From: DHVE2 group archaeon
Lineage (GTDB): Archaea; Thermoplasmatota; Thermoplasmata; Thermoplasmatales; Aciduliprofundaceae
Direction of reading: 5' to 3'
Assembly (NCBI GenBank): GCA_027023265.1
Contig: JALVVV010000041.1
Location: forward strand, 1-32,506
DNA length: 32,506 bases
Positions within the stretch are counted from its first letter, which is position 1, and every line of letters starts with the position of its first letter. Below are positions 24,998 to 29,512 of the stretch, in pieces. Position numbers and translations under genes: made by a program. Under the pieces are notes generated by a model, which made no database searches, was not told the DNA's origin, and was given only the letters and a program-made list of their open reading frames with translations.

Positions 24998-25643
24998 ATG
25001 AGCAGGAAGTTAGACATATACAATGTTGTAAAGATAGGGCAAAACGTGATGAAGAGAGCGAAGATTCCACTTTACTGGAGCAAACATTCGAGGAAGGCTC
25101 ACACAATACACCAGCACATCATGCTGATAGTGCTGGCACAGTATATCGGAAACAGGAGCAAAATGCTCCGAATGATAAGATATATGGACAGAATATGGAA
25201 GGCAGTGAAATTGAAGGAAATACCAGACGAAAGCACAATTTCAACGGAGATAAGAAGAATTCCTAAACAATGGCTCCGCATGGTTATTGAAGAAGAAGTA
25301 AAAGAGCTGGGAATACTGGGCAACTTTGCGGTATGCGGATAAAATAGAGGAGGTCTATGCCTATAAGGGCTACGATTCCGTGAAAAATATCCGATTTGTG
25401 CTGAGCAGGGGTGGAAAGCCATACATCACAATCCGTAATAAAGCGAAAAGGGGATTGCGAAGGAGGATGTTAGAAAAAAGCAAATCTCCAGAGTGGAAAA
25501 AGAAGTATTCGCATAGACATGTAGTTGAATCCGTGTTCCACTCCTTAAAAAGAGTGGTTGGTGATTACATATTCTCTCTTTCTTTCCCTTCAGCTTCTAA
25601 ACTCCTTCTTTTTAAGGTGCTCGCTTATGACCTCTATATTTAA
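24998..25643 (+). pseudogene. DDE transposase, deleted and frameshifted
   Basis: Two pieces in different frames: 24998-25340 gives the N-terminal 114 residues with a helical DNA-binding part, ending just after GNFAV. The piece from about 25326 to 25643 gives the C-terminal part with AYKGYDS and the glutamate motif SHRHVVESVFHSLKR. Comparison with IS5/IS4 transposases of about 300 residues implies that 80-100 residues are missing at the junction near 25325, including the first catalytic Asp (expected right after GNFAV); the second Asp motif (usually ADKGYD) reads AYKGYD. Inactive on its own, but its ends could be mobilised by a full copy. GGTGAT precedes the ATG. Confidence 0.85.
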
Positions 25644-25701: not shown

Positions 25702-25753
25702 AGATTGCATAAAATATTAATACATATACGCATTTATCATTTTTGTGACTCGT

Positions 25754-27730
25754 ATGAAAAAGGGGTTAATAGTATTAGGGCTAATGGCAGTAATGGTACT
25801 AAGCGTGTTTGCGGGGGGGGGGGTGACGGCGCACCCCGTGCACATTAAGAGATATGGAACTTTCGATAACAATGTTTTTGACAATGGAAGAATAAAGTAT
25901 GAAATACATGGATTAAATGCGGAGATTCATAGTCATTCTGGAAGCATACTCGTAAAAGATGTGCATCCCGAGATATGGATAAATGATAATGGATGGGAGA
26001 AGATAAAATATAAAGAGATTAGATTTTTCAATTACACATCCAACGGGACACATAGGGTTGTGGTTGAAGCGGAGCATAAAGGAAAGATTTATTCATACAT
26101 GGCCATAGTTTACGAGGAGAAAACCGAGTTCTCACGTTATCGTCCATTATTTCCGAAGCTCTTTATCTCTTTCAATAAAACTATGCAATACAAGGTAAAA
26201 ATGGTGCTTGAAAACATCAGGATAAATCATTTCCTCATTATAGACAACGGAACCGGTTACACGGAGCCGCCGTTCAAAAAAGGACATAGAAAATATGAGA
26301 TGTACAACGGCACTATAAAACGCAAGAAAGAGTTTAGAGATTGGCAGGACATAGTGATAGGATACAGCGAAGGAAAGAAAAAATTCGGGCTTAATTGGGA
26401 GAAATACAAGGGAGTATACAGAAATCTTAAATTTGAGAAAGGAGATAGTGGAATCAATATGGAGGTAGAAAGCGACCCGCAGGAAATGAGTGCTTATACA
26501 GTGAAGACTGTAGGCTTTCCGATTCCGGACACCGGCGGAGGCGGTGGAGGTACACCCCCATCAAATCCAGATACCGATGGAGATGGTTTGCACGATGACA
26601 CAGAGATTGCAGGGTGGTATGCGTACTGGTACGATAGTAGGGGAGATTATCATTGGAAGCATGTGACTTCTGATCCTAACAAAACAGATACAGATGGAGA
26701 TGGTGCAAATGATAAAGAGGAGTACCAGCAACAAACTGACCCGAGAAATAGCGATACGGATGGAGACGGGATGAGCGATGGTTATGAAATTCACTATGGT
26801 AAGCCCGCTGGCGGCTGGCAGGAGCCGAACTGGTACAACCACAGGTATGCGGTGATAATTGTGGGCGGGGGATATGTTAGTTCCGGAGATGATGCTTTTT
26901 ATCCTGCGTTCTGGAACGATGGAAAGGCAATGTATTATAAATTAATAGAGGACTACAAATACCTATCAAACAATGTGTATCTAATGTCTTCACAGTGGTA
27001 CATAGAAGGAGGACTGGGCTGGAGAGGATACGGTCCTTCAAATGCGCAATCTGTGGGGTATATTATTCGTGGCGAAGCAATGTGGAACTCGCCAACGCAT
27101 TATGATATAAAAGATGCGCTGGATGACATAAGCAGCAAGATAACAGTGCATGATTCACTTATGATTGTTATCATTGCTCATGGTGCGAGTTATAATCAAA
27201 CATCCGGACTTTTTGTCATACGGGCAGATGTATCAAATTCACAAGCTGAAAGAGATCCGTCTTCACAGATGCATACAGTATACTGTGACTATTCTTCTAA
27301 TGGGAATCTAGGAACATATCTTAACGAACATTTCGGTGGTAACAACGGAATTCCAAGAAAATATGCGGTAATGAGTATTATAATTCAGTCCTGCAATAGT
27401 GGCAGCTTCATTCCAAATTTAGAGGGAGACTATCGGATTGTAATGACCGCAGCTAAGTGGAATGAAGACGTGTATACAGAAGCAAATTTTTGGGCAAGAA
27501 ATGATCACTGGGCGTTTCTATATCAAGGAGCGGTAGTAAGTCGTACCGGCTCAACAGAATATTACCCGGGTGTTATACTTTCTCTTGGTTCTATTAACTC
27601 TCCCAATTCACTATCTAACGTTTTTAGTCAAGGATGGTTAGCCGCAGAGGAAAACAATAGATTCAATACATACTATGCATCTACTCCACAGATATATAAT
27701 TCGAATCTAGCGCAGGTGATGTACCTATGA
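25754..27730 (+). CDS. Secreted legumain-like (C13/caspase-fold) cysteine peptidase with calcium-binding repeats
   Basis: The 658 residues begin with a signal peptide (KK, then a long hydrophobic core, SVFA). Residues 30-255 form a beta-rich domain with several N-glycosylation sequons. A Gly-rich hinge leads to three DTDGDG-type thrombospondin-3-like calcium-binding repeats from residue 273. A clan CD peptidase domain follows at about 365-650, with the catalytic dyad His476 (IIAHGA) and Cys547 (QSCNSGS, as in legumain ExCxSGS). It should be an extracellular asparaginyl- or caspase-like peptidase. The ATG at 25754 follows a TATA-like TACATATAC by 29 bases; GTG 25745 is the alternative. The promoter starts just outside the insertion element. 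The stop overlaps the next start (ATGA). A run of 11 G lies in the signal-peptide codons. Confidence 0.85.
   Translation: MKKGLIVLGLMAVMVLSVFAGGGVTAHPVHIKRYGTFDNNVFDNGRIKYEIHGLNAEIHSHSGSILVKDVHPEIWINDNGWEKIKYKEIRFFNYTSNGTHRVVVEAEHKGKIYSYMAIVYEEKTEFSRYRPLFPKLFISFNKTMQYKVKMVLENIRINHFLIIDNGTGYTEPPFKKGHRKYEMYNGTIKRKKEFRDWQDIVIGYSEGKKKFGLNWEKYKGVYRNLKFEKGDSGINMEVESDPQEMSAYTVKTVGFPIPDTGGGGGGTPPSNPDTDGDGLHDDTEIAGWYAYWYDSRGDYHWKHVTSDPNKTDTDGDGANDKEEYQQQTDPRNSDTDGDGMSDGYEIHYGKPAGGWQEPNWYNHRYAVIIVGGGYVSSGDDAFYPAFWNDGKAMYYKLIEDYKYLSNNVYLMSSQWYIEGGLGWRGYGPSNAQSVGYIIRGEAMWNSPTHYDIKDALDDISSKITVHDSLMIVIIAHGASYNQTSGLFVIRADVSNSQAERDPSSQMHTVYCDYSSNGNLGTYLNEHFGGNNGIPRKYAVMSIIIQSCNSGSFIPNLEGDYRIVMTAAKWNEDVYTEANFWARNDHWAFLYQGAVVSRTGSTEYYPGVILSLGSINSPNSLSNVFSQGWLAAEENNRFNTYYASTPQIYNSNLAQVMYL
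25813..25823 (+). repeat. Homopolymeric G tract (11 bases) within the peptidase signal peptide
   Basis: GCG GGG GGG GGG GTG encodes Ala-Gly-Gly-Gly-Val at the end of the signal peptide. Eleven G keeps the peptidase in frame; gain or loss of one base would stop it. It is by far the longest homopolymer of G or C in the window. Confidence 0.95.
27077..27110 (+). repeat. 34-base identical block shared with 28410-28443
   Basis: Inside the peptidase gene, encoding the end of GEAMWNSPTHYDI. The identical block lies in the truncated second copy, whose remaining sequence has diverged more. Confidence 0.9.
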
Positions 27731-27867
27731 GGGAAAAAACACCCAATATTGGAAAGAGACTGCGATTAATCAGAAATATTCTTATAGTGTCAGCAGTAGC
27801 ACAATTCATTGCTCTAATAGTTCTCATTTTCCTGTATATCTTTACCCTACCACAGGGGTGGTGCTGA
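27727..27867 (+). CDS. Tiny single-TM membrane protein (46 residues), first cassette copy
   Basis: Starts at ATG overlapping the peptidase stop (ATGA) and ends with TGA directly followed by the ATG of the next gene. A basic N terminus (MREKTPNIGKRLRLIR) precedes one hydrophobic helix (about 18-40). A related 40-residue frame sits in the same place in the second cassette copy (28931-29053): both contain KNIL/RNIL, then ISAV or VSAV, then a TM segment, then a final GC or GWC. Conserved position and couplings argue that this short frame is a real gene. Function unknown; a partner or anchor of the peptidase is possible. Confidence 0.65.
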   Translation: MREKTPNIGKRLRLIRNILIVSAVAQFIALIVLIFLYIFTLPQGWC

Positions 27868-28329
27868 ATGACTGAGAAATTAAAATCACAGATTAAAGCA
27901 CTCGCGGTTATAAACGCAATTCTCCTTATAGCCATTGTGCTTGCAGCTCAGGGTATAATGGATAATTTATCACTACAGAATAGATGGATATCAGGGAAGC
28001 TAACATATCTGTCTGACTGGTCAGACCCCTCTAATTTCTCAAAGGGAGTGTGGATAAAAATCACGCTTGAACATCCAGAAAAAGCCGACGTCATATATCT
28101 CTATATAGTTGTTAAACTACCCCGTGGTGAGGTTGCTTCCTTCACTTTTGAGGAAATTAAAAATACCACTGCTAAATACCATAACTATACGGCGGAATTT
28201 TATGATAAGAATAGGGATTATTATGTCTCTTCTGGAGATAAAATTCATATATACGGTGACACTCTAAAAAATGCGATTGTGTTAATTAGAATCATTACTT
28301 ACAAAGGGCAGCTGCAGGTGAAAGTATGA
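27868..28329 (+). CDS. Membrane-anchored protein with EF-hand-like loop, first copy
   Basis: One N-terminal helix (about 12-30) anchors a domain of about 120 residues that is beta-rich and contains sequons (NFS, NTT, NYT), so it should face outside. Near residue 115 it has DKNRDYYVSSGDKIHIYGD, a degenerate version of the D-x-D-x-D-G-x5-D calcium loop that is intact in the second copy. I know no named family for it; the final YxGQLQVKV strand and GD motif recall archaeal pilin-like or Ig-like surface domains. It is adjacent without a gap to the tiny membrane protein and its stop overlaps the start of the next peptidase fragment. Confidence 0.75.
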   Translation: MTEKLKSQIKALAVINAILLIAIVLAAQGIMDNLSLQNRWISGKLTYLSDWSDPSNFSKGVWIKITLEHPEKADVIYLYIVVKLPRGEVASFTFEEIKNTTAKYHNYTAEFYDKNRDYYVSSGDKIHIYGDTLKNAIVLIRIITYKGQLQVKV

Positions 28330-28934
28330 CTAGGACTATTGACTGGTGTATGCCAAGCTGGGCATGGAGCAGTAATAACCACAATACAGATGGCAGAGTC
28401 AACGGCGAGGCAATGTGGAACTCGCCAACGCATTATGATATAAGGGATGCTCTGAATGATATAAGCAGCCAGATATACGAAGTAGATTCTGATACATTAG
28501 GGGCGTATCTAAATAACCATTTTGGTGGTAATAATGGTGGGAGAAAATACGCAGTAATGACTATAATTCTTCAAACTTGCAACAGTTAGTGTATGATACC
28601 TAATTTGGAAGGAGATCATAGAATAGTTATGGCAGCATCTGATTGGGATAAAGAAACATACATCGAAATGGGAAGTAATTTTCAACATTTTGCATTTATT
28701 TATGAGGGTTCAACACAAATAGATGGGGTGACAACTTCTACATATCCGGGCATTATCGAATCTATGGATAGTTTATCATTTCCACGTTCTCTATATTATA
28801 TGTATTCTGACGGTTGTACATCTACCTCTCATAACTATGGGGCAGTAAGCATAGTAATCGCAGGAATTGTCGCCGATGGTCGTTCTACGCCACATATCTA
28901 TAATATGGATTTAGCAGAGGTGGTTTACCTATGA
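28326..28934 (+). pseudogene. Truncated second copy of the legumain-like peptidase with in-frame TAG
   Basis: Similar to the C-terminal half of the upstream peptidase, but without signal peptide, calcium repeats and the segment bearing the catalytic His. The first part has GEAMWNSPTHYDIRDAL and ILQTCNS with the catalytic Cys; a TAG at 28587-28589 interrupts where the parent has Gly; then the same frame continues (IPNLEGDHRIVMAASDWD) to VVYL. The ATG at 28326 is coupled to the previous stop (ATGA), and the 3' end still overlaps the next gene's ATG at 28931. It looks like a decayed gene whose ends keep the operon couplings. Confidence 0.8.
28410..28443 (+). repeat. 34-base identical block shared with 27077-27110
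   Basis: Second member of the pair within the duplicated peptidase sequences. Confidence 0.9.
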
Positions 28935-29053: not shown

Positions 29054-29512
29054 ATGGGAGAAAAATTAGAAAAAGAAATTGAACTCCTTAAGGTTATAAA
29101 TGTTATCCTTATCAGTGCTATCGCATTTATGGCCTTATTAATAACACCCTATTTGGCCCCTCAACATAGCAATACTATAGAAGGTAAACTCGAATATATG
29201 TCAGATATATCTGACCCAAACAATATTTCTAAGGGTGTGTGGATAAAAATCACACTTAAAAATCCGGAAAAAGTTACAATTGAACATATTCATTTGGGTC
29301 TTTACATATCCAGAGAAATTCATGGTCAATTTAATTTTAATGAGAACTTCACAGCTAAATTTCAGAACTATACAGCGGAATTTTACGACGTGGATAAGGA
29401 TGGATATGTTTCTTCAGGGGATGTATTTCATATATATGGGGATATGCTAGAAAACGTCAAAGTGTGGTTTTCTATTACAGCATATAATGGCCAGTTTGAG
29501 GTAGAAACATGA
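29054..29512 (+). CDS. Membrane-anchored protein with EF-hand-like calcium loop, second copy
   Basis: Paralog of 27868-28329, 152 residues. An N-terminal helix (about 13-32) anchors a domain sharing KGVWIKITL, YTAEFYD and SSGD-x-HIYGD with the first copy. Its loop DVDKDGYVSSGD has all the ligand positions of a canonical EF-hand or dockerin-type loop, while the first copy is degenerate. This fits the calcium-binding repeats of the peptidase and suggests a calcium-dependent surface complex (inference). It is the last gene of the duplicated cassette. Confidence 0.75.
   Translation: MGEKLEKEIELLKVINVILISAIAFMALLITPYLAPQHSNTIEGKLEYMSDISDPNNISKGVWIKITLKNPEKVTIEHIHLGLYISREIHGQFNFNENFTAKFQNYTAEFYDVDKDGYVSSGDVFHIYGDMLENVKVWFSITAYNGQFEVET

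Follow-up and report, generated by a model that had tools for sequence, protein, structure and literature searches.

The window (the whole stretch of 32,506 nucleotides of archaeal DNA that was analysed) carries, all on the + strand, a gene for a predicted secreted peptidase with a homopolymeric G tract near its 5' end, two genes for membrane proteins directly behind it, and a broken second peptidase copy with a partner gene of its own:

25754..25812, + strand: leader-coding DNA 5' of the tract, the region of the six-copy comparison below
25813..25823, + strand: G tract where the signal-peptide core ends; its length is 2 mod 3 (ON)
25754..27730, + strand: predicted cysteine peptidase, C13-like (clan CD) and secreted, containing TSP3 calcium-binding repeats
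27727..27867, + strand: gene for a 46-aa membrane peptide, its start overlapping the peptidase stop (ATGA)
27868..28329, + strand: 153-aa membrane-anchored partner protein, whose homologues adjoin the peptidase gene in relatives
28326..28934, + strand: second peptidase copy, broken and 5'-truncated; an in-frame TAG interrupts it and the His region is missing
29054..29512, + strand: another partner protein (152 aa), with 80% identity to that of genome G006

The likely start codon of the peptidase gene is the ATG at 25754 (the open reading frame as called mechanically begins at the GTG at 25745), and the 658-residue protein counted from that ATG has a front domain specific to the family, a linker rich in Gly, the TSP3 calcium-binding repeats and the C13-like peptidase part. 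The last of these carries AHG and SCNSG motifs. The presumed catalytic dyad is assigned to the His codon at 27179-27181 and the Cys codon at 27392-27394 on the strength of the invariant AHG and xCxS motifs: H476-G477 and C547 (numbered from the same ATG) do not vary among five aligned members of the family, in keeping with the C13 motif. The preliminary description had called the enzyme legumain-like, and this assignment is fair but marginal: the window protein scores 19.8 bits against the Peptidase_C13 profile, below the cut-off of 22.8, whereas the best family member reaches 3.9e-07 and the His and Cys motifs are in place. An AlphaFold model made from 4 sequences has a mean pLDDT of 34, too low for judging a caspase-like fold; comparison with the PDB by sequence gave chance-level matches only, and the viral contigs searched contain no relative of the peptidase protein. 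A transposase remnant (DDE_Tnp_1), lying in two frames at 24998-25643, directly precedes the gene.

Translational coupling of the peptidase to the two downstream membrane-protein genes, also proposed earlier, is plausible from the way these genes are joined: the stop and start codons overlap as ATGA at 27727-27730 and abut as TGA/ATG at 27865-27870. The downstream genes are retained, with the same ATGA overlap, behind the OFF copy on contig C130 of genome G003. For the partner membrane protein dN/dS is 0.23-0.25, which does not support rapid diversifying selection. The broken second copy is of the G006 type; its single in-frame TAG sits just past the position of the catalytic Cys. Genome G006 itself has, after its partner gene, a similar truncated peptidase copy (L004).

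The tract at 25813-25823 consists of exactly 11 consecutive G, as both the letters of the window and a pattern search of the genome confirm, and it lies where the preliminary description had placed it, in frame at the end of the hydrophobic core of the signal peptide, MKKGLIVLGLMAVMVLSVFA. It is the sole run of at least 11 G in the genome (1,644,047 bases in 59 contigs), in which only two other places have 8 G or more (8 G in C1, 9 G in C55). The second-longest G or C run of the window is 6, and a run of 11 G appeared in 0 of 100 dinucleotide-shuffled versions of the window. Within the peptidase reading frame the tract is read A-GGG-GGG-GGG-V, so that the in-frame length is 2 mod 3. The Gly linker of the same gene is coded GGC GGA GGC GGT GGA GGT; with codons so mixed, a need for glycine does not by itself explain the run of G.

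The tract is not peculiar to this gene. Within a set of 18 genomes of DHVE2/Aciduliprofundaceae-type archaea, 12 have homologues of the front domain; class-wide, such homologues occur in 9 of 400 sampled genomes, every one of them from this taxonomic family, to which they are confined. The family set contains five runs of at least 9 G, and all of them lie at one point of the peptidase gene family, where shorter tracts are also found:

at least 9 G: G000 C41 (the window), 11 G; G000 C55, 9 G; G004 C118, 9 G; G015 C32, 10 G; G017 C39, 10 G
7-8 G: G003 C34, 8 G; G007 C32, 8 G; G007 C68, 7 G
5-6 G: G003 C130 and C94, 6 G each; both G013 copies, 6 G each; G006, 5 G plus T

The length thus ranges from 5 to 11 over relatives and paralogues. 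Relatives with no long G run at this position would have spoken against a switch; the tract instead recurs at this site, in relatives as well as in paralogues. Poly-G runs of at least 9 in other families of the order are mostly intergenic or within unrelated ORFs, and none is in the peptidase gene family. One of these other families furnishes a 10-G tract that breaks an unrelated secreted or pilin-like ORF (G060 C18:67165-67174, L170), possibly a second archaeal contingency locus. There is also a run of 10 C within the 5' leader of a membrane-protein gene, only a few bases from its ATG (G058 C3:60952-60961, L171); changes in its length could alter expression.

When the three frames around each tract are read, the signal peptide is found joined to the body of the protein only at lengths of 2 mod 3, that is, 8 or 11; at every other length found among the relatives and paralogues it is not, which bears out the earlier expectation that the number of G sets the frame. 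By this measure three genes are ON, namely the window copy (11 G), G003 C34 (8 G) and G007 C32 (8 G), and nine are OFF. The home genome has two more copies, in C55 (9 G) and C45 (A plus 5 G); both are OFF, with the gene body gone. The ON state is scattered over the tree, forcing at least two changes. Tract-less homologues (mostly of genus g3; also G017 C54) have the signal in frame with the body and, at the tract site, GGA GGA GCA ATG GGA or similar, with Gly codons GGA GGA or GGT GGG. The tract varies in length next to a nearly constant flank: among six copies from G000 and G003 the 69 bases 5' of the tract diverge by 2.8% on average, yet tract lengths are unequal in 12 of the 15 pairs, which are pairs of paralogues and species rather than of strains. 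The two G003 copies in C34 and C130 have no difference in those 69 bases, yet one has 8 G and the other 6.

These properties argue, with a probability that we put at about 0.8, for a poly-G contingency (phase-variation) locus that would switch secretion of the clan-CD, C13-like peptidase. Slipped-strand mispairing at replication would alter the number of G. A tract of 8 or 11 G would join the secretion signal to the calcium-binding, C13-like cysteine peptidase (ON); with any other length translation would stop shortly after the signal and yield a leader peptide of ~30 residues alone (OFF). The OFF state would probably also lower translation of the coupled membrane proteins. We infer that slippage is the mutation process, that it is reversible within a clone, that OFF lengths abolish secretion and that they have a polar effect on the genes behind. 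Slippage and frame switching, taken as one process, would account for the confinement of the tract to one site, for its variation in length, for the state of the frame and for the selection on OFF bodies described below. The on/off switch first suggested for the window copy alone is supported, as far as comparison of genomes can do so, by same-site tracts whose varying lengths produce both ON and OFF frames. The variation of the tract cannot be put down to a lack of mismatch repair, since MutL is detected in 17 of the 18 family genomes; with MutL present, and NucS not generally detected across these genomes, the variation appears local to the tract and gives no sign of failed repair.

Could the frame breaks be artefacts of sequencing or assembly in a homopolymer that has, in truth, a single length? 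The relatives mostly look like metagenome assemblies, and coverage is low in two of the source assemblies, about 1.5-2.0x (about 1.7x for some contigs); this range is given for the contigs of T11 and S145 and, according to the record titles, for those of G003 and G006. It makes single lengths in these two assemblies uncertain, the tract itself being certain. An artefact of this kind is nonetheless very unlikely: the long tract is present in separate assemblies of several species and at one site only, and tracts of six G, which are easy to sequence, are OFF as well, in the single-contig genome G013 among others. Runs of exactly 8 G within long ORFs of unrelated genes in the same genomes provide the control; 9 of 10 are in frame, and the one break, in a HAD-like ORF (G017 C24:5321-5340, L057), may be an error or a real frameshift. 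The corresponding figure for the peptidase family is 3 of 12 (Fisher p 0.004; the copies are not fully independent, and p is 0.02-0.04 once related or doubtful copies are removed). That the OFF copies are real but are ordinary pseudogenes, the G run being a mutation hot spot with no selected switching, is also unlikely, if somewhat less so. Decay is certainly visible: both G013 copies have a truncated or deleted C-terminal part and the G015 copy an extra in-frame TAA, so that some OFF copies are probably decaying and may be plain pseudogenes; the two body-less copies in the home genome point the same way. In the window's genus, on the other hand, the bodies of the OFF copies G003 C130, G006 C76 and G007 C68 remain open for 631, 635 and 633 codons, retain the His and Cys motifs and have dN/dS near 0.1. 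For the N-terminal part dN/dS is 0.11-0.19 over the compared copies: 0.11 between the ON window copy and the OFF copy G003 C130, 0.11 between G003 C130 and G006, both OFF, and 0.18 between G015 and G017, both OFF with 10 G. Most of the bodies now OFF in the window's genus are under purifying selection (dN/dS near 0.1-0.2). The run, moreover, has been kept in two genera, although GGA, GGC or GGT codons would abolish it and leave the protein unchanged.

Two other explanations accept the tract lengths and give them a different meaning, and both are highly improbable. Transcriptional slippage or programmed frameshifting would generate a mixture of in-frame and out-of-frame product at any genomic length. 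Six-G tracts are short for slippage by RNA polymerase. Programmed frameshifting requires a conserved frame relation and is disfavoured, since the lengths span all three residues mod 3, the in-frame one included. What can be said for this explanation is that homopolymers do slip in transcription, as reported for A/T runs in bacteria (PMC1088944). Alternatively, the tract might be a ribosome-binding element for an internal start just after it, so that the switch would be between a secreted and a cytosolic enzyme: an ATG lies 2 bases past the tract in several copies (CAATG, CGATG, TAATG), a GTG overlaps the tract end in the window's subgroup, and poly-G could, by reasoning, pair with a CCUCC anti-Shine-Dalgarno sequence. 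The same Met is, however, an ordinary in-frame residue in the tract-less homologues, and a peptidase with TSP3 calcium-binding repeats suits an extracellular role.

Frame switching by the tract may not be the only source of variation. Catalytic C-terminal parts vary beneath near-identical front parts. Two copies in G013 (C1:324726-325415 and 416337-417026), 91 kb apart, have identical fronts (225 codons, 0 differences) and different C-terminal parts, which suggests a recent event, either gene conversion or a duplication accompanied by an exchange of domains; similarly, G003 C34 and the window copy match at 93% in front and far less behind. The pattern suggests recombination among peptidase copies on top of tract switching. 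The full proposition, that this is genuine, selected poly-G phase variation in archaea, spanning at least two genera, directed at a secreted peptidase and coupled membrane proteins, and combined with exchange of the C-terminal catalytic domain, is more tentative, and we would place it a little short of even odds.

In Campylobacter and Neisseria, contingency loci of the poly-G type are commonplace. The archaeal tract resembles the slipped-strand poly-G and poly-C loci of Campylobacter, Neisseria, Helicobacter and others in being a G homopolymer in the 5' part of a gene whose product is secreted or exposed at the surface, in that its length sets the frame and varies between copies, and in the intactness of OFF bodies; it differs in its archaeal hydrothermal-vent host, in being limited to a single gene family where the bacteria have many loci, and in being known from sequences, not from culture. 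The NalP autotransporter of Neisseria meningitidis (PMC3723659) is likewise a secreted protease switched on and off by a homopolymeric tract within the coding sequence, but it is an unrelated protease with another secretion route, the enzyme here being clan CD and C13-like. A statistical survey of homopolymeric tracts in the coding genes of 99 prokaryotes (81 bacteria, 18 archaea) placed poly-A/T tracts towards the 5' end but saw no such placement of poly-G/C (PMC2831843). It, too, proposed 5' tracts as reversible prokaryotic gene switches; the present case is instead one particular poly-G family, archaeal and having both ON and OFF alleles. The VARTIG modules of Thermococcales (PMC8416519) are comparable as an archaeal variable locus, with a large protein gene followed by variable genes and suspected shuffling; they encode Ig-domain proteins, and no tract switching is described there.

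The mechanism, then, is already known from bacteria; the archaeal, family-wide case is the new part. To our knowledge, simple-repeat phase variation has been described almost only in bacteria, and mostly in host-associated ones. Its spread into archaea is still to be explored according to a 2025 review (PMC11868660), and a search of the open-access literature found no archaeal poly-G phase-variable gene, which is no proof of absence. If the reading of the tract as a contingency locus is true, a vent archaeon with no known animal host would be switching a secreted enzyme, and the drivers would have to be other ones: viruses, competitors and the cost of sharing an extracellular enzyme are candidates.
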